A stretch of DNA of 64,000 bases from Halorubrum aethiopicum (GTDB lineage Archaea > Halobacteriota > Halobacteria > Halobacteriales > Haloferacaceae): NCBI RefSeq assembly GCF_001542905.1, contig NZ_LOAJ01000001.1, forward strand, positions 1,302,001-1,366,000. Direction: 5' to 3'. The number at the start of each line of letters is the position of its first letter. Positions within the stretch are counted from its first letter, which is position 1. Below the pieces are notes generated by a model. It made no database searches and was not told the origin of the DNA. It saw only the letters and a list, made by a program, of their open reading frames with translations. Made by a program: the position numbers and the translations under genes. Shown here piece by piece: positions 48,860-60,782 of the stretch.

Positions 48860-51800
48860 ATGACAAACGACAATAACTCAACGCGGAAGAAGGCTAATGC
48901 GGTCTTCTTCAGCTTGATCGTGGTACTGTCCATGGTCGGCGTTGGCTTTGCCGGGTCCGCGACAGCACTCGGTACCAACGACGACTATCTGGACGTGAAC
49001 GGCGACGAGAAACAGGGAGGCGTTGTCTTCCAGGGTCAGGACCTTTACCTGGTTGGCGACTCGGTTAATGGCAGCAACGGCGCAACCGTTAACCTTCGCC
49101 GAGTCACCGAGTACAACGACTCCAACGCTGTCACGAACAGCGAGCAGGTCGAACAGCTTACTGTCGAGGCGTTAGATAGTGACTTCCCGAGTGCTGTGGG
49201 CTCGGGAGGCCAGGTCGTCGAGATCGACACAGACGATCTCGAGGCCGGTGACTACTTCGTCCGTGGCGTCGGTGACTTGGCAGTCAATCCTCAGCAGTCT
49301 GAGACATTCGAGGTCACGGTGCAGGACCTCTCTGCTGAGTTTGACGATGAGGAAGTCACCGATGAAGGTGCGAACTCGGTGACCGAACTCGATGTCAGTT
49401 CCGACCGTGGAACGTACTCCACGAACGTGAGTGCTAACGGCGATCTCAGTGAGACGGAACTGATTAATGTCCTGGTAACTGGTGAGAACGTGGATGTCGA
49501 CAGCAACGGATACATTAACGGCTCCACAATCACCCCCAGTGATGCGGTTACTGTACAGGATCTCCGTAACATCCTGGTCAACGTGCGTGGTAACGTCAGC
49601 GTTGATGATGCTGGGAACCCGACACTCGAAAGTAGTAGCACTGAGATAGGTGATTCCAACATCACGCTGGATGAGGCCATCGCTACGGACGCTAACCCAT
49701 TCGGTGCTGTCGTTTACAACACAAACGAAGAGGATGCTGACGAAAAGGTCGGCCTGTACCAGCAGCCCGACACCGCGGCTGACGTCAGCTTTGCCGGAGT
49801 TGACACGGGCGACTACGAGTTCAACTTCGACGTCGGTGACACAGAAGCCTCGGATAACGCGTCGATCACGGTGAACGAGCAGGACACGACCGGTGACTTC
49901 AGTCAGGGTGTCTACACCCAGACTGCGGGTGACGTCGTGAACATGACGCTCGAGCTCGAGGACACCGACGACGCATACATCCAGGTTGGTGACGAGGAAT
50001 CCGGCTTCGTCGATGTCCTCTACGTTGAGGACGACGACGACGACGGCGAGGTCACCTTCCAGGTTAACACTCGTCTGCTGGGAACGTACGGACCTGATGA
50101 TGACGTGTACAACACTGAGGATGACATCGTCGAGAGCCTAACCCACGGTGGCATTAGCGACGCAGACGACGTGCCTCGGTTCGAGGATGAGGATGGAAAC
50201 GGCATCGGGTTCAACGGTTATCTCGAACAGCTGGATCTGATCGACTCTGGAGAGAGTCCGGAAGACCAGCTCGTCCGGCCGCTTCAGCCCACCAGCTACG
50301 AAGTTGCCGCGAACGGGAACGATCTCTTCGTCGTGAACGAGGACGATGAGTCCGAGCTCGACAACGAGATCGACCTCGCGACGCTCGAACTGACTGAACC
50401 TGGTGTCGGCAACATCCAGACATGGACCGCTCCGTCCGACAACGCGGATGCGGACACTGACCTTCAGGATGTCCTCGATACCGTGAATCAGACGAGCGAG
50501 ATCGCAGAAGACGACCGTCTCGTCATCCAGGCCGAGGCAACCGGTATCTACGGTCACATGGTTGCCATTGACGACGACGGCTTCGACGCGCTTAACAACG
50601 GCTTCAGCGCGTCCACGCTGGATACGCTCGACAACCGCGAGGGTGAGGGTGTGAACATCGAAATCGAGGCTGACGACGCGACTGGCAACCAGGACGCGAC
50701 GTCACTCGATCTCGCTGGTGCATCTGAGAGTGATATCATCGTGCTCGTTGACAACGACAGCGGCCAGATGTTCATTGTCGTTGACACGAGTTCCAGCGAT
50801 GCCTTCGACGGTACGCTCGATCCGGACGCCGAGTTCACGGCCGAGATCGAGTACGAAGGTGACGCGGACAACCGCTTCGAATTCAACGGAACCAGCGTCC
50901 TCGGCGGTGCGGGCGGCGATTCCACCGAGGCTGCGTTCCCGTACTTCCAGGCCGGTGACGACGTGACTCAGACCTCAACGGGCGACTTCACGATCGCCGA
51001 GCGCGACGCGACCTTCGACAACATGGACGGTGAGGAAGTCCAGGTCGCTCTCAGCGAATCTGCGACGGTCAGCGGAATGACGAACGTTGCGCCCGGTTCA
51101 GATGCCAGCGTGCGCATCCAGTCGGCTGAGGGCGTTTCGCCCTCGTTCGTTGAGACGTCTGATGTCCAGATCAACAGCGACGGAACCTTCAGCGCCGAGT
51201 TCGACGTGAGCGCCCAGTCCGTCAACGACACGGGTACGGTCAGCTTCCGTGTCGACGGCAGCTCCGTTGCTGACTCCGACATGCGGATCGTCGAGACGGT
51301 CGGCGAACCCGCCAACTTCGCCGTCTCCGATCTCAACCCGCAGGACGTGACCGTCACGTCCGGTGACGTCATCGATGTCTCCGCAACGGTTGAGAACACG
51401 GGCGAGAACGAGGCGACCCAGACCGTGACGTTCCAGGTCGGCGGTAACACCATCGCCGAGCAGGACGTCACGCTCGACGGCGGCGAGAGCATGACCGTCG
51501 AGTTCACCGACATCGACACGTCCAGTCTCGATGCCGGTGACTACGAGCACGGCGTCTTCACCGACGACGACAGCCAGACGGCCACGCTGACCGTCGAGGC
51601 TGCCGACACCGGTGGTGACGACGGTGCCTCCGACGACGGAGAGACTGACGACGGTGCCTCCGACGACGGAGAGACTGACGACGGTGCCTCCGACGACGGA
51701 GAGACCGACGACGGTGCCTCCGACGACGGAGAGACCGACGACGGTGCCTCCGACGACGGCTCCGGTGATGACGGCTCGACGGACGACAGCACGCCCGGCT

Positions 51801-51868
51801 TCGGCGCGCTCGTCGCCCTCGTCGCCCTCATCGCTGCTGCCCTGCTCGCGACGCGGCGTCGCGACTAA
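48860..51868 (+). CDS. S-layer glycoprotein with PGF-CTERM anchor
   Basis: The 1002-residue secreted protein forms the surface lattice. It has a Sec signal peptide (about 1-37: NNSTRKKANAVFFSLIVVLSMVGVGFAGSATAL), a long acidic ectodomain with many N-x-S/T sequons, and a linker of DDGASDDGET repeats (about residues 920-967). The C-terminus TPGFGALVALVALIAAALLATRRRD is a PGF-CTERM signal: PGF, membrane helix, Arg-rich tail. ArtA (encoded at 13753-14715) is the known processor of such signals. Codon use is less GC-rich than neighbouring genes (many gtt, act, gat codons), suggesting a different history or selection for expression. It is flanked by surface-glycan genes. Confidence 0.95.
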   Translation: MTNDNNSTRKKANAVFFSLIVVLSMVGVGFAGSATALGTNDDYLDVNGDEKQGGVVFQGQDLYLVGDSVNGSNGATVNLRRVTEYNDSNAVTNSEQVEQLTVEALDSDFPSAVGSGGQVVEIDTDDLEAGDYFVRGVGDLAVNPQQSETFEVTVQDLSAEFDDEEVTDEGANSVTELDVSSDRGTYSTNVSANGDLSETELINVLVTGENVDVDSNGYINGSTITPSDAVTVQDLRNILVNVRGNVSVDDAGNPTLESSSTEIGDSNITLDEAIATDANPFGAVVYNTNEEDADEKVGLYQQPDTAADVSFAGVDTGDYEFNFDVGDTEASDNASITVNEQDTTGDFSQGVYTQTAGDVVNMTLELEDTDDAYIQVGDEESGFVDVLYVEDDDDDGEVTFQVNTRLLGTYGPDDDVYNTEDDIVESLTHGGISDADDVPRFEDEDGNGIGFNGYLEQLDLIDSGESPEDQLVRPLQPTSYEVAANGNDLFVVNEDDESELDNEIDLATLELTEPGVGNIQTWTAPSDNADADTDLQDVLDTVNQTSEIAEDDRLVIQAEATGIYGHMVAIDDDGFDALNNGFSASTLDTLDNREGEGVNIEIEADDATGNQDATSLDLAGASESDIIVLVDNDSGQMFIVVDTSSSDAFDGTLDPDAEFTAEIEYEGDADNRFEFNGTSVLGGAGGDSTEAAFPYFQAGDDVTQTSTGDFTIAERDATFDNMDGEEVQVALSESATVSGMTNVAPGSDASVRIQSAEGVSPSFVETSDVQINSDGTFSAEFDVSAQSVNDTGTVSFRVDGSSVADSDMRIVETVGEPANFAVSDLNPQDVTVTSGDVIDVSATVENTGENEATQTVTFQVGGNTIAEQDVTLDGGESMTVEFTDIDTSSLDAGDYEHGVFTDDDSQTATLTVEAADTGGDDGASDDGETDDGASDDGETDDGASDDGETDDGASDDGETDDGASDDGSGDDGSTDDSTPGFGALVALVALIAAALLATRRRD
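51617..51759 (+). repeat. 30-bp tandem repeat inside the S-layer gene
   Basis: Four complete copies and a partial fifth of a 30-bp unit beginning gacgacggtgcctccgacg encode DDGASDDGET. Copies differ by only one base (gagact/gagacc), so the array is recent or kept homogeneous and could change length by slippage. Confidence 0.9.
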
Positions 51869-52329: not shown

Positions 52330-52776
52330 CTACTCCACGGGAACCCGGAGGTCCTCGACGCGGCGGGCGCGATAGAAGCGCACGTAGCGGGTCGCGATCC
52401 GCCAGCCGACGACCGCGAGCCCAGCGCCGCTTGCGTTGGTGAGCACGTCGTCGTAGGCCGCGGTACGGACCGACAGCGTCGACTGGAGCAGCTCGATCCC
52501 GATCCCGTAGGCGGCGACCGCGAGGAAGACGAGCGCGAGGACCTGCCAGTCGGGTCGCGGCGTATCGTGGAGGGTGTACGCGAGCGCCGCGGCGAGCCCG
52601 CCGTACGCCAGCAGGTGGAGCCACGTCGAGTAGCCGAGCACGCCGAAGGGCCCGGTGCGGAAGGTGCCGCTGCCCGGCGCGGGCACGACGGAATAGAGAA
52701 GGATGACGAGCGCGACGAGCACGACGGCACCCCAGCGGACGCCCCGCGGGATCAGCGGCAGCCGGATCCGAGCCAT
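52330..52776 (-). CDS. VanZ family membrane protein
   Basis: A 148-residue protein with four helices in the VanZ layout: RWGAVVLVALVILLYSVVPAPGSG (about 13-36), YSTWLHLLAYGGLAAALAYTL (the conserved D/S-x-x-x-H-x-x-x-Y pattern, about 49-69), VLALVFLAVAAYGIGIELLQST (conserved Glu), and AAYDDVLTNASGAGLAVVGW (conserved D..N..G). The molecular function of VanZ-like proteins is not settled; they often sit near surface-polysaccharide genes, as here. ATG at 52774-52776 is chosen as the first before the helix. It is divergent from the STT3-like gene starting at 52891. Confidence 0.88.
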   Translation of the reverse strand: MARIRLPLIPRGVRWGAVVLVALVILLYSVVPAPGSGTFRTGPFGVLGYSTWLHLLAYGGLAAALAYTLHDTPRPDWQVLALVFLAVAAYGIGIELLQSTLSVRTAAYDDVLTNASGAGLAVVGWRIATRYVRFYRARRVEDLRVPVE

Positions 52777-52890
52777 GTACGCTCGGTGGCGGAGGGGCGG
52801 ACCTAAAACGCCCGGTCTTCGGCAGGATGGAGTGCGTACGACCCGGCGACAACGGAGGGTTTTACCCGGTCGCCCGCACAGGGTCGGGTA

Positions 52891-55347
52891 ATGGCGGACC
52901 CGCACGCGGCGACGCGGGAGCTCCTCAAGGAGCGACCGGCGGTCGAGTCGGCGCTTGAATCGATCCTCGAAGCGGACGAGTCCGGCCCCTGGGAGTTCGA
53001 CGACGTCGACGTCGATTCCGGCACCTTCGGCGAGCTGGTCTCGCGGGGGATCGTCGAGCGCGAGGGCGACGAGTATCGCGTGGCCGATCGGGAGGCCGTT
53101 CGGGCCGCGCTGGAGGGGGAGACGTACGGATCGGCCGAAGCTGATCAGGGTGGAAGTGTACATGACGACGTAGTGGAAGCTCTTGTTGGGGCCGTCACTG
53201 GCATCGTTCGCGACTGGCGAGTGACGTTTCATCGAGATATTGTCATCGGACTATCTGGGGCCTTACTCTGTCTGTTTGCGTTCCGGATCGTCACGATCGG
53301 GAGCGTGTTCCGCGACGGTCGAGTAGTGCTACCGGGAAACGACCCGTACTACTACCTCTACTGGGTTGAGCAGTTGGCAGCAGCGGATCCGGCTCCATTC
53401 GCATTCGAGACGATAGCTGAGGCTCTCGGTGGACGTGCCACGGGAGAACCATTCGTACACACTCTTGGCTGGTGGGCGACCAAGCTCGTCGGTGTCGGGA
53501 TCGAGGATGCGGTGGCAGTCGTCGCGTGGATTCCCGTTGTCGCTGCCCTTATTGTCGGGATCGGGGTCTATCTGGTCGCACTCTGGACGATGAACGACGA
53601 ACGTATCGCGGTAGCATCCGTCCTCGTCTTTGCGTTGCTTCCCGGGCACGCGCTCTACTCTGGGATCGGCTTCTTCGATCACCACGCGATCGACTACGTC
53701 TGGCTCACGCTCTCCATCGTCGGCGTGACGTGGCTCGCACGGGACCACGAGACGCGACATTCGGAGGCACGGCTCGGTCACCTCACCTCACCGATCACGT
53801 GGCTGGTGGTAGCCGGACTCGGCATCGTCTTCGCCGCGATGGCACATTCCTGGAACGGCTCGCCGATCCTCCTCGTCGGGCTTGCCGTGTACGCGACGTT
53901 ACGGGCGGCCTCGGACATACGAGCCGGGTGGAATCCGATGATTGCTGCCACTCCGATCGTAGGTGCGCTTGGATTCGGATTCTCCCTCGCGTACGTACTC
54001 CACAGCCAAGCGGGGTGGCAAGAACCAGTCGCAGTCTACGCACCAGGACTCGTCGCGTTCGGCGTGGTCCTCGTCGCGGTTGTCGCTGTCGTCCTCCAGC
54101 GACTCGGCGTACATCCGGGCGTCCACTTGGGAATCTCGGCGTTGAGTATTATTCCGTTTTGGATCGGAGTGAACCGATTCTTCCCGGAGATTGGTTCCAG
54201 ATTAGCCCAGCGAATATCCGGATCGCTTCTCGGGCGTGAGGGAATCATCGAGACACAGAGTCTGTTTACTACTGAACTCGGGGTTATCTTGGGGCCGATT
54301 CCCCACTTCGGCTGGTTCCTGTTCTTGACGGTGCCCGCACTCGTGTGGCTGACGTGGCATTGCGTCCGTTCTCACGAGCCTCGATGGCTCGTCATTGTCG
54401 GGTATACGACCGTCCTCGTCGGGTTTGCTATCATCCAGAACCGATTTGCGGGCGAAGCTACTGCGCTCGTCGCGATCTGTTCTGGCCTCAGTCTGGTTTA
54501 TCTTCTCTCGATAATCGATCTCGCCAAACGACCGAGTCCGTTTGGAGACAGATCAAAGCGGGTTCGACTCAATCTCTATCCCGATGGTTTCTCGTGGCAG
54601 GAGGTTGCCTATGTCACGGCAAGCATACTGCTGGTTGCTAGTTTGAGCCTGTTCATGGTCCCCGCAGCTATGGATAATCTAGCCGCGACCGATGAGGAGG
54701 TGGAGGCGATCGAGTGGATCGACGCTGATGCGGCTGACCGTGAGGGTCCCGATTACGTTTTGACTGAATGGGGACGTAGTAGGATGTTCAACTACGGAGT
54801 GAACGGCCAGTCAAGCAGCTATGCCTACGCACAAGCTACCTACGAACCGTTTGTTAATGATCCGAACCCCGATTCGTACGCCGATGAATTCCAAGACCGC
54901 GTGGGATACGTGGCGATACACGAGATCGAGGACGCCGACGCGCCTCCGAATTCCGGGTACGCCCAGCTGTTTGAGGCAAACGGAAGCACGACACCAGCAG
55001 CGAACGGATCCGGTCGATTCCAGCTGGCGTACGTCACCAACGACGACGGGATCAAAGTGTTCCGTCCCATGAACGGCGCGATGATCGCCGGACAGACCGC
55101 GCCGAACGCGACCCTGACGGTCGAGACGAACGTCACCGTTCCCGGCGCGTCGTTCGCCTACGAGCGGCGGACGACCGCGGACACGAACGGGAGCTACGCG
55201 GTCGTCGTCGCTCATCCCGGCGAGTATACGGTTGAGCTGGAGAGAGATTCCAGCGAAGAAGCTACCGAGACCACGGAGGGCAACCGAACGGTAACCGTCC
55301 CCGAATCTGCCGTCTCCGACGGCGAGCGCGTCGCGGTCGCCGACTGA
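52891..55347 (+). CDS. STT3/AglB-like membrane protein lacking the WWDYG motif
   Basis: An 818-residue protein with a soluble acidic N-terminus (about 1-95), about 11-13 membrane helices (about 105-590) and a C-terminal extracellular domain. Features of oligosaccharyltransferases are visible: GNDPYYYLYWVEQL in the first external loop (about 149-162) and GFFDHHAIDYVW (about 261-272), the acidic metal-site motifs. However, where AglB has WWDYG in its C-terminal domain, this protein reads VLTEWGRSRMFNYG (about 622-635). So it is an AglB paralogue or a related glycosyltransferase-C protein whose activity is unproven. The centre of the gene is less GC-rich than its two ends. Confidence 0.82.
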   Translation: MADPHAATRELLKERPAVESALESILEADESGPWEFDDVDVDSGTFGELVSRGIVEREGDEYRVADREAVRAALEGETYGSAEADQGGSVHDDVVEALVGAVTGIVRDWRVTFHRDIVIGLSGALLCLFAFRIVTIGSVFRDGRVVLPGNDPYYYLYWVEQLAAADPAPFAFETIAEALGGRATGEPFVHTLGWWATKLVGVGIEDAVAVVAWIPVVAALIVGIGVYLVALWTMNDERIAVASVLVFALLPGHALYSGIGFFDHHAIDYVWLTLSIVGVTWLARDHETRHSEARLGHLTSPITWLVVAGLGIVFAAMAHSWNGSPILLVGLAVYATLRAASDIRAGWNPMIAATPIVGALGFGFSLAYVLHSQAGWQEPVAVYAPGLVAFGVVLVAVVAVVLQRLGVHPGVHLGISALSIIPFWIGVNRFFPEIGSRLAQRISGSLLGREGIIETQSLFTTELGVILGPIPHFGWFLFLTVPALVWLTWHCVRSHEPRWLVIVGYTTVLVGFAIIQNRFAGEATALVAICSGLSLVYLLSIIDLAKRPSPFGDRSKRVRLNLYPDGFSWQEVAYVTASILLVASLSLFMVPAAMDNLAATDEEVEAIEWIDADAADREGPDYVLTEWGRSRMFNYGVNGQSSSYAYAQATYEPFVNDPNPDSYADEFQDRVGYVAIHEIEDADAPPNSGYAQLFEANGSTTPAANGSGRFQLAYVTNDDGIKVFRPMNGAMIAGQTAPNATLTVETNVTVPGASFAYERRTTADTNGSYAVVVAHPGEYTVELERDSSEEATETTEGNRTVTVPESAVSDGERVAVAD

Positions 55348-55449: not shown

Positions 55450-55473
55450 CATTTCGCCCGATACGTGTCTCCG

Positions 55474-56889
55474 ATGCTCTCCGGATGGCGGTATCGGCTC
55501 GAAAGCGTCGCGGGCGTCGCGCTGTTGACCGCGGTCGCCGTCGCGGTCGCGAACAGCGCGGCCGTTCACGCGCTGTTGGGCCGGCTTCCGGTCGTCGGCC
55601 GGCTGGCGGCGGACGCGCCGATGGGTGCGGAGCTGTTGTTCGAGGTCGCGACGACGGTCGTCGTCGTCACCGCCGCCTTCGTTCCGCTGTACAAGCCGCG
55701 GCCGCGGCGCATCCTCGACACCGTCGCGCTCGCACAGAAGCGGGTCATGGTCGCGATGTTCGCGCTCGCGGCCGTGGGCTACTTCGATTACACCTACCGA
55801 CTCCCCCGAACGACGCTCATCGCGATCACGCCGGCGTTGCTCGTCGTTCTCCCCGCGTGGTTCGTGTGGATCCGGCGGCGGCCGACTGCCGAGACGGATC
55901 GGGTGATCGTCGTCGGCGACGATCCCGCGGAGATCGGGCGTCTCGCCGGCGACGTGGACGTTCCTCTGATCGGGTACCTCTGTCCGACGAGTTCGCTCGA
56001 CTCGGTCGCGGAGTCGGAGGAGTCGCGTGCGGTCGCGACCGCGGTCGCCGACGGTGGGGCGCAGATCCGGGGATTGGATCGGCTCGGCGGACTCTCGCGC
56101 ATCGAGGACGTGCTCGTCGAGTACGACGTGGACACCGCAGTGCTCGCCTTCGAACACACCGACCGCGCGGAGTTCTTCGGCGCGCTCGACGCGTGTTACG
56201 AACACGGCGTCGCGGCGAAGGTCCACCGCGAGCACGCGGACCGGGTGTTGACCGCCGACGACGACGTGGGGACGCTCGTCGACGTCGACGTCGAGCCGTG
56301 GGACGTCCAGGACCACGTCCTGAAACGCGGATTCGACGTGGCGTTCTCGCTGTTCGGTTTGATCGCCTTGAGCCCCGTTATCGCGGCGATCGCCGGCGCG
56401 ATCAAGCTGGACGACGGCGGGCCGATCCTCTACAGCCAGGAGCGGACGGCGGTGTTCGGCGAGACGTTCGACGTGTACAAGTTCCGATCGATGGTTCCCG
56501 AGAGCGAGTCGGTCGAACCGGTCGACGACGAGTCGAACGACCGGATCACTCGCGTAGGTCGGTTCCTTCGACAGACGCATCTCGATGAGATCCCGCAGCT
56601 GTGGTCGATCCTCGTCGGCGACATGAGCGTGGTCGGCCCGCGGGCGGTGTGGACCGACGAGGAGTCCCTTCTGGAGGCACAGGAGCGATCCTGGCGTAAA
56701 CGGTGGTTCGTCAAGCCTGGCTTGACCGGACTGGCCCAAGTGAACGGTGCGAAGAGCACCGAACCGGAGGAGAAGCTGCGGTACGACCTCCAGTACGTGA
56801 AACGCCAGTCGTTCTCGTACGACATGAAACTCGTCACTCGTCAGATATGGAAGGTCGGTGCGGACGTGGTCGAGACGATTCGCGCGTGA
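55474..56889 (+). CDS. Polyprenyl-phosphate sugar-1-phosphate transferase (bacterial sugar transferase family)
   Basis: A 471-residue protein with four N-terminal helices, a Rossmann-like middle domain (IVVGDDPAEIGRLAGDV) and the C-terminal transferase module: KRGFDVAFSLFGLIALSPVIAAIAGAIKLDDGGPILYSQERTAVFG (helix plus membrane re-entry), YKFRSMVP, LRQTHLDEIPQLWSILVGDMSVVGPR, and KPGLTGLAQVNG. Members transfer hexose-1-phosphate to undecaprenyl or dolichyl phosphate, starting glycan assembly. The GTG at 55465 would add three residues, but TATA spacing favours ATG at 55474. It lies between the STT3-like gene and hyuAB, in the surface-glycan region. Confidence 0.9.
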   Translation: MLSGWRYRLESVAGVALLTAVAVAVANSAAVHALLGRLPVVGRLAADAPMGAELLFEVATTVVVVTAAFVPLYKPRPRRILDTVALAQKRVMVAMFALAAVGYFDYTYRLPRTTLIAITPALLVVLPAWFVWIRRRPTAETDRVIVVGDDPAEIGRLAGDVDVPLIGYLCPTSSLDSVAESEESRAVATAVADGGAQIRGLDRLGGLSRIEDVLVEYDVDTAVLAFEHTDRAEFFGALDACYEHGVAAKVHREHADRVLTADDDVGTLVDVDVEPWDVQDHVLKRGFDVAFSLFGLIALSPVIAAIAGAIKLDDGGPILYSQERTAVFGETFDVYKFRSMVPESESVEPVDDESNDRITRVGRFLRQTHLDEIPQLWSILVGDMSVVGPRAVWTDEESLLEAQERSWRKRWFVKPGLTGLAQVNGAKSTEPEEKLRYDLQYVKRQSFSYDMKLVTRQIWKVGADVVETIRA

Positions 56890-57066: not shown

Positions 57067-59127
57067 ATGGGTGAACGGCGGATCGGCGTCGATGTCGGCG
57101 GCACGTTCACGGACGTGGCGCTGGCGCTCAACGGCGCGCTCGTGACCGCGAAGGTCCCGACCACGGACGACCAGAGCGAGGGCGTGATGGCCGGGATCGA
57201 GAAGGCCTGCGCCGAGGCGGGGATCGACCCCGAGAGCCTCGCGGAGTTCTCCCACGCGATGACCGTCTCGGTCAATGCGCTGCTCGAGGAAAACGGCGCG
57301 CGGACCGCGCTCGTCACGACCGAGGGGTTCCGGGACGTCCTGGAGATCGGCCGGCAGGACCGGCCGTCGCTGTACGACCTCGACGCCGAGAAGCCCACGC
57401 CGCTCGTCCCGGGACGCCGCCGCTTCGAGGTGGCTGAACGGGCGACCGTCGACGGGATCGAACGACCCGTCGACGGGGAGGACGTTCGCGCGGTCGCCGC
57501 GGCGATCCGCGAGGCCGACGCCGAGAGCGTCGCGGTCTCGTTGCTCCACGCCTACGCGCACCCCGAGAACGAGGCGCGCGTGGCGGAAACGCTCCGCGCG
57601 GAACTCGACGTGCCGGTGTCGGCCTCCCACGAGGTGCTCGCGGAGTTTCGCGAGTACGAGCGAACCTCGACGACCGTCGTCGACGCCTACGTCGGCCCGG
57701 CGATCGACCGCTACGTGGGCCGGCTCACGGAGCGCGCGCGAGACCGCGGCGTCCCGCAGCCGCGGATCATGCAGGCCAACGGCGGGATCACGGACGCCGA
57801 CACCGTCAGGGAAAACGCCGTGACGACCGTCCTCTCGGGGCCCGCCGCGGGCGTCGTGGGCGCGAGCGCGATGGCGACCGCGGGCGGCGAACCGAACCGA
57901 ACTGACGAAGCCGGCCTCGTCACCTTCGACATGGGCGGCACCTCGAGCGACGTGAGCCTCGTTCGCGACGGCGCGGCCGCGCGGACGACCGAGAGCGAGA
58001 TCAACGGCCGGCCGATCCGGACGCCGATGGTCGACATCGAGACGGTCGGCGCGGGCGGCGGGTCGATCGCCTGGGTCGACGCCGGCGGCGCGCTCCGGAT
58101 CGGGCCGCGCTCCGCGGGCGCCGACCCCGGGCCCGCCTGCTACGGAAAGGGCGGGACGGAGCCGACCGTGACGGACGCGAACCTCGTGTTGGGGTACGTC
58201 GGCGCGAGCACCAGTCTCGGGGGCGAGCTGTCGCTCGACGCGGAGGCCGCCCGCGACGCCCTCGCGGGGCTCGCCGAGGAGGCGGGGATGGACGGCCCGC
58301 TCGCGGCCGCCCGCGGCGTCCACCGCGTCGCGAACGCGAACATGACCCGGGCGATCCGTTCGGTGACCGTCGAGCGGGGCCACGACCCGCGGCGGTTCGG
58401 CCTCGTCGCGTTCGGCGGCGCGGGGCCGATGCACGCGATCGCGATCGCCGAGAGCCTCGACGTCGGGAGGGTGGTCGTCCCGCGGGCCTCGGGCGTCCTC
58501 TCGGCGTACGGTCTGCTCGCGGCCGACGAGAAGCGCGACGCGGTCCGGACGCGCCAGCACCCGCTCTCGGCGGTCGACCCCGACGCGATCGACGAGGTGT
58601 ACCGAGAGCTCTCCGAGGAGCTGCTTGCCGAGGTGAGCGATCCCGACGCGGCGACCGTGGAGTACGCCGCCGACCTCCGGTACGCCGGCCAGAGCTTCGA
58701 GCTCACCGTCGACGTGGAGCGCCCCTTCGACCCCGCGGCGGCCGGCGAGGCGTTCGCGGCGGCCCACGACGCCGCGTACGGCTACCGGGCGGACGAGCCG
58801 GTCGAACTCGTGAACTGCCGGGCGACGGCCACGCGCTCCCGGAGCGCGCCGCCGCTCGAGTACGACGCCGCCGGCGACCCGCGGAAGGGGACCCGCGAGG
58901 CGGCGTTCGGCGAGGTGGGCGGGACGACTGCCGACGACGACGGCGGGACGGCCGCCGACGGCGTCCGCGACACGGCGGTCTACGACCGGGGGCGGCTGCC
59001 GCCGGGCGAGACGTTCGCGGGACCGGCCGTCGTCGAGGGCGACGAGAGCACGGCCGTGGTTCCGCCGGGCTGGGACGTGCGGGTGCGTGCGGACGGCGCG
59101 CTGGTGGCGGAGGTGAGTGAGTCATGA
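57067..59127 (+). CDS. hyuA: Hydantoinase/oxoprolinase subunit A (HyuA)
   Basis: An ATP-dependent amidohydrolase subunit that acts with HyuB on hydantoins, 5-oxoproline or related cyclic amides. The 686-residue protein starts GERRIGVDVGGTFTDVAL, the actin-like phosphate loop, then FSHAMTVSVNALLEENGARTALVTTEGFRDVLEIGRQDR, TFDMGGTSSDVSLV (about 290-305), GAGGGSIAWVDAGGALRIGPRSAGADPGPACYG and GFGGAGPMHA-type loop (FGGAGPMHAIAIAESL). All are HyuA marks. The ATG abuts the TAG of a 21-codon ORF at 57001-57066. The ATG of hyuB overlaps its stop (ATGA). Confidence 0.92.
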   Translation: MGERRIGVDVGGTFTDVALALNGALVTAKVPTTDDQSEGVMAGIEKACAEAGIDPESLAEFSHAMTVSVNALLEENGARTALVTTEGFRDVLEIGRQDRPSLYDLDAEKPTPLVPGRRRFEVAERATVDGIERPVDGEDVRAVAAAIREADAESVAVSLLHAYAHPENEARVAETLRAELDVPVSASHEVLAEFREYERTSTTVVDAYVGPAIDRYVGRLTERARDRGVPQPRIMQANGGITDADTVRENAVTTVLSGPAAGVVGASAMATAGGEPNRTDEAGLVTFDMGGTSSDVSLVRDGAAARTTESEINGRPIRTPMVDIETVGAGGGSIAWVDAGGALRIGPRSAGADPGPACYGKGGTEPTVTDANLVLGYVGASTSLGGELSLDAEAARDALAGLAEEAGMDGPLAAARGVHRVANANMTRAIRSVTVERGHDPRRFGLVAFGGAGPMHAIAIAESLDVGRVVVPRASGVLSAYGLLAADEKRDAVRTRQHPLSAVDPDAIDEVYRELSEELLAEVSDPDAATVEYAADLRYAGQSFELTVDVERPFDPAAAGEAFAAAHDAAYGYRADEPVELVNCRATATRSRSAPPLEYDAAGDPRKGTREAAFGEVGGTTADDDGGTAADGVRDTAVYDRGRLPPGETFAGPAVVEGDESTAVVPPGWDVRVRADGALVAEVSES

Positions 59128-60782
59128 ACGACGACGAGACGTCGGGCGAAGCGCAGGACCCGACCCACGACCACGGGGCGACGGTCGACCACGACCTTGA
59201 TCCGGTGACGCTGGAGATCCTCCGGAACCAACTCGAGAGCGTCGCCACGGAGATGGGCCACGTGCTCATCCGCGGGGCGTACTCGCCGAACATCAAGGAA
59301 CGACAGGACTGCTCGACCGCGCTCTTCGACGCGTCGGGGCGGATGGTCGCGCAGGCCGAACACATCCCGGTCCACCTCGGGGCGATGCCGGACGCGGTGG
59401 AGACGGTCCTCGAGGAGAACCCGAAGCCGGGCGACGTGTTCGTCCTCAACGACCCGTTCGCGGGCGGGACGCATCTCCCCGACGTCACGCTGGTGTCGAC
59501 GATCGCGCCCGAGGGAGAGGTGATCGGCTTCGCGGTGTCGCGCGCGCACCACGCCGACGTGGGCGGCAGCGCTCCGGGGAGCATGCCCGCGGGGGCCCGA
59601 GAGATCTTCGAAGAGGGACTCCGCCTGCCCGCGGTCCGCCTCGTCGACGGCGGCGAGCCGAACGAGGCGGTCCGCGAGCTGATCCGCGCGAACGTCCGGA
59701 CGCCGGACGAGCGCGAGGCCGACCTCCGCGCGCAGCGCGCCGCGAACGCGCGCGCGGAGGAGCGGGTCGGCGAGCTGCTCGACGAGCACGGGCCGACGCT
59801 GCTCGACGCCTTCGACGCCGTCATCGACTACTCGCGCGAGCGCGTCGAGGCCGAACTCGCCGCCCTCCCGGACGGCACCTACCGGGCACGGGACGTGCTG
59901 GAGGGCGACGGCGTCACAGACGAGGACGTGCCGATCGAGGCGTCCGTCATGATCGACGGCGCGTCGATCGCCGTCGATTTCTCCGGGACCGCAGAGCAGG
60001 TGGCGGGCAACCTGAACGCGCCGCTGTCGGTCGCGAAGAGCGCGGTCTACTTCGTCGTCCGGGCGATCACGGATCCGGAGATCCCGCCGAACCACGGCTG
60101 TTACGAGCCGGTGTCGGTGTCGGCACCCGAGGGGTCGCTTCTCGATCCGCGCCCGCCCGCGGCGGTCGTCGGCGGCAACGTGGAGACGAGCCAGCGGGTC
60201 ACCGACGTCACGCTCGCGGCGCTCGCCTCGGCGGTCCCCGACGTCGTCCCCGCCGGCGGGCAGGGGACGATGAACAACCTGATCATCGGCGACAGAGGTG
60301 GCGAGTTCACCTACTACGAGACGATCGGCGGCGGCTTCGGGGCCCGCCCCGGCAAGGACGGGATGGACGGCGTCCAGGTCGGCATGACGAACACGCTCAA
60401 CACGCCCGTCGAGGCGCTGGAGGCCGCGTACCCGCTCCGCGTCGAGCGCTACGCGTTACGGCCCGGGAGCGGCGGCGACGGCCGGTACCGCGGCGGACTG
60501 GGGCTCGAACGGACCGTGGCCGTCGAGACCGACGCCACCGTCTCGCTTCTGACCGAGCGCCGGCGGACGGCCCCCGCGGGGCTCGCGGGCGGCGCGGACG
60601 GCGCTACGGGAAAGAACCTCGTCGACGGCGAGCCGGTGCCCGCGAAGGCCTCCGTCGATGTCACGGCCGGAGCGACCGTCTCGATCCTGACGCCCGGCGG
60701 CGGCGGCCACGGTGACCCCGCCGAGCGCGACCCGGAAGCGAGGGAGCGCGACCGGCGCGACGGGAAGGTAACCGATCGGTGA
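59124..60782 (+). CDS. hyuB: Hydantoinase/oxoprolinase subunit B (HyuB)
   Basis: The 552-residue partner of HyuA: after an acidic start, LDPVTLEILRNQLESVATEMGHVLIRGAYSPNIKERQDCSTALFDASGRMVAQAEHIPVHLGAMPDAV (about 25-95), NDPFAGGTHLPDVTLVSTIAPEGE (about 111-134) and RAHHADVGGSAPGSMP (about 142-157) carry the metal ligands. The C-terminus has GYRG-type segments (RYRGGLGLERTV) and ends GGGGHGDPAERDPEARERD. Its start overlaps the hyuA stop by four bases, so the pair is translationally coupled and must act as a complex. The true substrate of haloarchaeal versions is unknown. Confidence 0.92.
   Translation: MNDDETSGEAQDPTHDHGATVDHDLDPVTLEILRNQLESVATEMGHVLIRGAYSPNIKERQDCSTALFDASGRMVAQAEHIPVHLGAMPDAVETVLEENPKPGDVFVLNDPFAGGTHLPDVTLVSTIAPEGEVIGFAVSRAHHADVGGSAPGSMPAGAREIFEEGLRLPAVRLVDGGEPNEAVRELIRANVRTPDEREADLRAQRAANARAEERVGELLDEHGPTLLDAFDAVIDYSRERVEAELAALPDGTYRARDVLEGDGVTDEDVPIEASVMIDGASIAVDFSGTAEQVAGNLNAPLSVAKSAVYFVVRAITDPEIPPNHGCYEPVSVSAPEGSLLDPRPPAAVVGGNVETSQRVTDVTLAALASAVPDVVPAGGQGTMNNLIIGDRGGEFTYYETIGGGFGARPGKDGMDGVQVGMTNTLNTPVEALEAAYPLRVERYALRPGSGGDGRYRGGLGLERTVAVETDATVSLLTERRRTAPAGLAGGADGATGKNLVDGEPVPAKASVDVTAGATVSILTPGGGGHGDPAERDPEARERDRRDGKVTDR

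Follow-up and report, generated by a model that had tools for sequence, protein, structure and literature searches.

A WWDYG-less AglB/STT3 paralogue of haloarchaea as a candidate oligosaccharyltransferase for N-terminal asparagines of S-layer proteins

The window analysed here, a 64,000-nucleotide stretch of Halorubrum aethiopicum DNA, encodes a membrane protein of the AglB/STT3 fold that lacks WWDYG, the motif usually taken as defining oligosaccharyltransferases. It represents a clade of WWDYG-less haloarchaeal AglB/STT3 paralogues for which the label OSTx was coined in this analysis. Comparisons of sequence and gene content point to OSTx as a second, active oligosaccharyltransferase that would draw on a pyrophosphate-linked donor and, with no need for a sequon, glycosylate an N-terminal Asn of the S-layer protein. 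This reading is judged likely, and in Halobacterium salinarum it would make OSTx the missing Asn-2 enzyme. Neither the OSTx family nor its link to Asn-2 was found in the open-access literature. The gene and its features are given below by window position.

52891..55347, + strand: OSTx, AglB/STT3-fold membrane protein without WWDYG, 818 aa (ATG start; fold match, PF18079, TIGR04154 at 161 bits)
52891..53130, + strand: helix-rich N-terminal domain, residues 1-80, which shares homology with the corresponding domain of haloarchaeal insertases of the EMC3/TMCO1-like type (Oxa1 superfamily)
53335..53343, + strand: first acidic motif, G149-N150-D151; D151 corresponds to the metal ligand Asp47 of A. 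fulgidus AglB (AfAglB) by mapping; N150 and D151 in 49/49 rows
53677..53685, + strand: second acidic motif, D263-H264-H265, corresponding to AfAglB Asp161-His162-His163 (alignment and mapping)
54241..54252, + strand: TIXE equivalent GIIE, residues 451-454; E454 (49/49) corresponds to AfAglB Glu360 (mapping)
54436..54447, + strand: QNRF, residues 516-519; R518 corresponds to AfAglB Arg426, near the donor phosphate (mapping; role from PMC8342417, in excerpt); R518 and F519 in 49/49
54766..54798, + strand: WWDYG replacement, E626-W-G-R-S-R-M-F-N-Y-G636 (motif reading, model and alignment)
55075..55332, + strand: AglB_L1 peripheral domain, residues 729-814 (PF18079, 37.4 bits, above the gathering cut-off of 23.6)

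OSTx matches A. fulgidus AglB at the sequence level. Its score against TIGR04154, the archaeal AglB family, is well below the curated cut-off of 450 bits for both the window protein (161 bits) and the OSTx of Hbt. salinarum (141 bits). The structure of OSTx, predicted from 43 aligned sequences, has a mean pLDDT of 90.4 and a pTM of 0.82, and the top Foldseek matches of this model are AfAglB entries. With VIA-align, 597 residues of the model were aligned to A. fulgidus AglB (PDB: 3WAJ, Z = 36.8, 18 % identity), the AglB fold spanning OSTx residues 119-818; the scores against PglB (Z = 27.7), the C-mannosyltransferase DPY19 (23.6) and the PMT O-mannosyltransferases (22.3) are lower. The model shows a GT-C fold with an AglB/STT3-like globular domain. 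By predicted fold, OSTx is thus a member of AglB/STT3 that falls outside the family definition with respect to WWDYG.

The motifs were counted in an alignment of 49 OSTx family members, the window protein and 48 relatives. The window protein reads GNDPYYY at residues 149-155 and FFDHH at 261-265, so that the acidic motifs NDPYY and FDHH are retained as the sequence-only reading had stated. At the second of these, position 263 is Asp in 39 rows and Glu in 10, while H264 is invariant and H265 is present in 34/49. The same reading had described an STT3/AglB-like protein with WWDYG replaced by EWGRSRMFNYG, which is borne out by the fold match and by the absence of WWD from all 49 rows. In the predicted model the replacement (residues 626-636) lies at the start of a helix, directly after a strand. 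In its place the family carries a motif of its own, W-G-x-N-R-M-Y-N, in which W627 (48/49), G628 (38/49), R631 (48/49) and N634 (49/49) are conserved and residue 630 is Asn in 43 rows and Asn or Ser in 46. The roles of the metal ligands, the TIXE glutamate, the phosphate-binding Arg and WWDYG, which binds Ser/Thr, are taken from PMC8342417 (in part). Since D151, E454, R518 and the residues of the new motif are invariant or well conserved, the change in WWDYG does not reflect chance or decay, and a pseudogene can be ruled out.

Two variants were observed within the family. In one subgroup (L017-L020, L023, L024, L026, L032), L-E-H-R replaces F-D-H-H at the second metal motif, and these proteins may use a different metal or donor. 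On two Haladaptatus plasmids (L081, L082; 15001-17949), OSTx is 982 aa long and annotated as LamG-like, and thus probably has an extra C-terminal domain.

In a tree of 54 proteins calculated by a quick method from 29 OSTx, 10 canonical haloarchaeal AglB and 15 sequences from elsewhere in the phylum, all 29 OSTx rows fall on one side of a branch with an SH-aLRT of 100 and so form one conserved clade. Two observations that would count against the earlier reading, another WWD in the sequence and a fold that groups away from AglB/STT3, were looked for and neither was seen. Of 110 genomes surveyed in the phylum, 11 contain full-length OSTx (at least 760 bits), every one of class Halobacteria. With a threshold of E ≤ 1e-40, genomes with weaker matches being counted as lacking it, OSTx is present in 215/391 Halobacteria genomes, about half of the sample, and its distribution is patchy within Halorubrum (23/46 genomes). 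Canonical AglB scores over the TIGR04154 cut-off in 384/391 Halobacteria genomes, alongside OSTx, and a single canonical AglB with WWDYG is encoded about 96 kb from OSTx in the source genome. As a result of this coexistence, OSTx as a substitute for canonical AglB was ruled out. One genome that is called 100 % complete (G117) contains OSTx, PF02397 and BacA with a best TIGR04154 match of just E = 1.3e-22; this is perhaps a species with OSTx and without canonical AglB.

PF02397 enzymes produce polyprenyl-pyrophosphate-linked sugars and BacA hydrolyses polyprenyl pyrophosphate. The sequence-only reading placed OSTx next to an S-layer gene and a polyprenyl-phosphate sugar transferase, and both genes are found there.

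48860..51868, + strand: S-layer-type surface glycoprotein with PGF-CTERM, proposed acceptor (profile matches)
48977..48979, + strand: Asn40 of the S-layer precursor, proposed acceptor residue outside a sequon, at about mature residue 3-4 (..ATA-L-G-T-N-D-D..; cleavage placed from an A-x-A type rule only)
55465..56889, + strand: polyprenyl-phosphate sugar-1-phosphate transferase (PF02397), proposed first donor step (profile matches)

The PF02397 gene starts 118 bases past the end of OSTx, and the BacA gene of the source genome lies about 31 kb further on, beyond the window. A VanZ-like frame (52330-52989, - strand; NF037970, 30.8 bits, cut-off 20) is situated between the S-layer gene and OSTx and overlaps the start of the latter in part; a VanZ-like cluster occurs near OSTx in 6/50 loci. 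Downstream of the transferase is an apparently unrelated hydantoinase/oxoprolinase A and B pair (57067-60782, + strand).

Across the 391 Halobacteria genomes, PF02397 is present in 202/215 with OSTx versus 39/176 of the others, and BacA in 177/215 versus 33/176. Within Halorubrum, each is found in 23/23 genomes with OSTx and 2/23 without. The association has exceptions: PF02397 is absent from 13 of the 215 OSTx genomes, no BacA was detected in Hbt. salinarum or in 37 more of the 215, and both are absent from 9. Of 50 OSTx loci viewed with about 9-38 kb of context, 24 have a PF02397 gene and 10 a BacA gene in the vicinity of OSTx, often directly beside it. A further conserved pair encodes a DUF4330 protein (10 of the 50 loci) and a membrane protein that matches no Pfam family (11 of the 50; e.g. 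L063, 4398-6364). The co-occurrence of OSTx, PF02397 and BacA probably marks a pyrophosphate-linked donor. Neither PF02397 nor BacA is present in the control genome, that of Hfx. volcanii, where AglB draws on a dolichyl monophosphate donor (PMC6591318, in part). The proposal that OSTx supplies the enzyme missing from the Agl15 route of Hfx. volcanii was also considered and rejected, as there is no strong OSTx in a genus (g6) that is probably Haloferax; a stretch of an Hfx. mediterranei plasmid matches the genomes of g6 over long pieces at only 77-81 %, which leaves this assignment tentative.

The Asn-2 glycan of Hbt. salinarum suggested the question of whether S-layer proteins tied to OSTx carry an early Asn, and a handful were viewed by eye before the test. 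For Halorubrum, proteins with the TIGR04207 surface-glycoprotein signal peptide were collected from 52 genomes, and the mature start was set by an A-x-A type rule that puts some cuts in the wrong place, as in Hbt. salinarum, where the predicted cut follows A-N-A. Proteins were considered linked when encoded within about 17 kb of OSTx, two rows (L175, L189) being placed via the PF02397 gene instead; the count omits genomes G484-G489, for which there is no OSTx assignment, short frames and most sub-cut-off matches, with seven sub-cut-off rows kept (L218-L224, of which L218-L220 are linked). An Asn is found within predicted mature residues 1-5 in 17/18 OSTx-linked proteins versus 12/43 from genomes lacking OSTx (Fisher p = 1.7e-6), where five linked rows come from two genomes, kinship was handled by the within-genus contrast only and shared ancestry of the linked genes inflates the significance. 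Without the five rows viewed beforehand, the linked proportion is 12/13 (p = 5e-5). Further surface proteins of OSTx-positive Halorubrum have an early Asn in 8/20 cases. In the other genera, with one best locus per genome and 30 loci listed for each set out of 58 and 50 genomes searched, an early Asn occurs among the matches listed in 23/30 OSTx-positive versus 8/30 negative loci (p = 2e-4), and an Asn within residues 1-2 in 13/30 versus 1/30.

The density of Asn over residues 1-5 is 0.21 (Halorubrum) and 0.18 (other genera) with OSTx versus 0.05 without; in later windows it is 0.02-0.08 in the OSTx-positive sets and 0.05-0.09 without OSTx. The early Asn residues of the OSTx sets are within N-X-S/T in 7/40 cases (Halorubrum 1/17, other genera 6/23), which is not above the 12/51 for later Asn of the same segments (1/17 and 11/34), while in OSTx-negative genomes the early rate is 5/8. 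An N-terminal Asn thus appears to be selected, and not as a sequon, which is the trace expected from an enzyme without a Ser/Thr pocket. The pattern is not uniform: 1/18 and 7/30 of the OSTx-positive S-layer proteins have no Asn in the first five residues, the early Asn falls at position 2 in only some proteins, and AglB could serve the 6/23 outside Halorubrum that are sequons. Surface-glycoprotein genes lie within about 12 kb of OSTx in 13 of the 14 Halorubrum genomes with a listed OSTx position; outside this genus the main S-layer gene is often far from OSTx.

The S-layer protein of Hbt. salinarum was the first prokaryotic N-glycoprotein and carries two N-glycans. Genome G017 was identified as strain DSM 3754 from 5000 bases that are 100 % identical to the plasmid NZ_CP038633.1 of that strain. 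Its S-layer gene csg (L115, 4446-6986; TIGR04216, 1181 bits) is followed 3.3 kb on by OSTx (L115:10302-12623), after which come glmS, two Arch_glmU-type genes and a PF02397 gene. This clustering of genes for UDP-HexNAc and a sugar-1-phosphate transferase suits a HexNAc-linked pyrophosphate donor. The csg precursor reads ..GGAAA-ANADQ at the expected mature start; if cleavage occurs at the published position, Asn-2 would lie in N-A-D, a natural variant with no Ser/Thr at +2. According to the parts consulted of PMC2952790 and PMC8674786, the Asn-2 glycan is a repeating, GalNAc-linked one made on dolichol pyrophosphate, glycosylation of Asn-2 persists when Ser-4 is changed to Val, Leu or Asn, and bacitracin blocks the transfer of this glycan only, leaving the other unaffected. 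These experiments were performed with a laboratory strain, while OSTx was read here in DSM 3754. In the literature, each source seen in part, a 2010 review left the Asn-2 route unexplained with one oligosaccharyltransferase gene found (PMC2952790), a 2013 paper suggested that an enzyme yet to be identified may exist in Hbt. salinarum too (PMC3871713), and in 2019 it was called unclear whether AglB handles the Asn-2 glycan (PMC6591318). A point against the OSTx reading is that PMC8241124, again in part, attributes the Ser-4 result to AglB and describes three non-canonical glycosites in Hfx. volcanii.

Compared with AglB, OSTx has an extra N-terminal domain. In a search of 8027 ORFs, residues 1-80 of OSTx matched all four of the EMC3/TMCO1-like proteins fetched (E = 3e-11 to 6e-10), and PF01956 was present in both of the two such proteins tested. 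This homology is no more than a hint that OSTx might dock where an Oxa1-type insertase docks. Genome G066 contains a frame of 183 aa (L236), close to a gene for a surface glycoprotein, that matches the OSTx N-terminal domain with 73 bits and looks like a truncated copy.

Several other roles for OSTx were considered. The loss of WWDYG and the occurrence of Glu for Asp263 in 10/49 rows might point to an AglB partner that is catalytically dead or has a regulatory function; this is highly improbable given that D151, E454, R518, F519 and N634 are invariant and that the patchy gain and loss of OSTx keeps step with the donor genes. A ligase that passes exopolysaccharide from polyprenyl pyrophosphate to lipid, polysaccharide or the S-layer lattice, with no defined Asn, would suit the generic polysaccharide genes nearby, namely epimerases at 26 and GT4 at 17 of the 50 loci and an O-antigen ligase-like gene at one plasmid locus. 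The STT3 fold with its amide-activating acids, the proximity of surface-glycoprotein genes in Halorubrum and the early-Asn association make a ligase unlikely.

Two further alternatives keep a protein acceptor. As a Ser/Thr oligosaccharyltransferase with a pyrophosphate-linked donor, OSTx could account for the O-linked disaccharides on the S-layers of Haloarcula hispanica and Hbt. salinarum, which have no identified transferase (PMC9943897 and PMC2952790, in part), and the loss of WWDYG fits an enzyme that no longer handles N-X-S/T. On the other hand, it is the early Asn that goes with OSTx, the metal site for Asn activation retains its residues, and Hfx. volcanii has O-glycans (PMC8241124, in part) but neither PF02397 nor BacA, while the genus that is probably Haloferax has no strong OSTx; O-glycosylation is accordingly also considered unlikely. 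It is even less probable that OSTx reads the ordinary N-X-S/T with a pocket of different build, the donor being its sole difference from AglB. While W627 in 48/49 rows and the early sequons outside Halorubrum (6/23) would be in keeping with such a pocket, the early-Asn sequon rate does not exceed that of later Asn, and Asn-2 tolerates substitution of Ser-4 (PMC2952790, in part). The sequence-only reading had proposed another acceptor, another donor lipid or a regulatory role for this paralogue. The change of acceptor is supported and the donor is probably polyprenyl pyrophosphate; a regulatory role is not supported since the catalytic residues are kept. Its suggestion of a dedicated second glycosylation route fits the evidence and gains strength from the pyrophosphate-donor genes and the early Asn. 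The spread of the family through class Halobacteria, its presence in Hbt. salinarum and its match to the published Asn-2 question go beyond that reading.

Glycosylation of an N-terminal Asn by OSTx may be envisaged as follows. The PF02397 transferase would place a sugar-1-phosphate on polyprenyl phosphate to give a pyrophosphate-linked glycan, which would be extended and flipped. OSTx, perhaps held near the translocon by its insertase-like domain, for which homology is demonstrated and placement is a guess, would activate the Asn amide with its AglB-type metal site and move the glycan onto it, as the invariant catalytic residues suggest. Because the WWDYG pocket that reads the +2 Ser/Thr is gone, OSTx would have no need for a sequon; its target would be an Asn in the opening residues of the mature S-layer protein, right after signal cleavage. 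Recycling of the released polyprenyl pyrophosphate would fall to BacA in most species, though not in all. The OSTx of Hbt. salinarum would use dolichol pyrophosphate as the donor to attach the repeating, GalNAc-linked glycan at Asn-2.

The evidence leans, on balance, toward a broader statement, that the OSTx branch, which occurs in roughly half of the haloarchaeal genomes sampled, performs sequon-independent glycosylation of N-terminal Asn from a polyprenyl-pyrophosphate donor with the freshly cut N-terminus as the position cue, possibly with insertase-type docking, and includes the Asn-2 enzyme of Hbt. salinarum. If so, a puzzle unsolved since 1998 would be explained, with a defined gene to work on in a species open to genetics, and the rule that oligosaccharyltransferases require Ser/Thr at +2 would be broken. 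Monophosphate and pyrophosphate systems of N-glycosylation would also run in parallel within one archaeal cell, and OSTx may serve as a tool for N-terminal glycosylation without a sequon.

With the haloarchaeal AglB proteins (TIGR04154; Hfx. volcanii, Hbt. salinarum), OSTx has in common the fold, both DXD motifs, the TIXE Glu, the QxRF Arg and the AglB_L1 domain; it differs in the replacement of WWDYG, the extra N-terminal domain and the co-occurrence with PF02397 and BacA. The bacterial PglB system begins with PF02397-type initiation of a polyprenyl pyrophosphate glycan, and the donor side inferred for OSTx is alike. PglB requires D/E-Z-N-X-S/T (PMC2952790, in part), and its fold is further from OSTx than that of AglB. 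The best solved match of the OSTx model, A. fulgidus AglB-L (PDB: 3WAJ, 7E9S), reads the +2 Ser/Thr by WWDYG and DK (PMC8342417, in part), whereas OSTx is without WWDYG. Asn-2 glycosylation in Hbt. salinarum, a reaction without a known enzyme, is linked to OSTx by prediction: it uses a Dol-PP donor and a GalNAc link to an N-terminal Asn with no need for Ser at +2, and the OSTx cluster adjoins csg.
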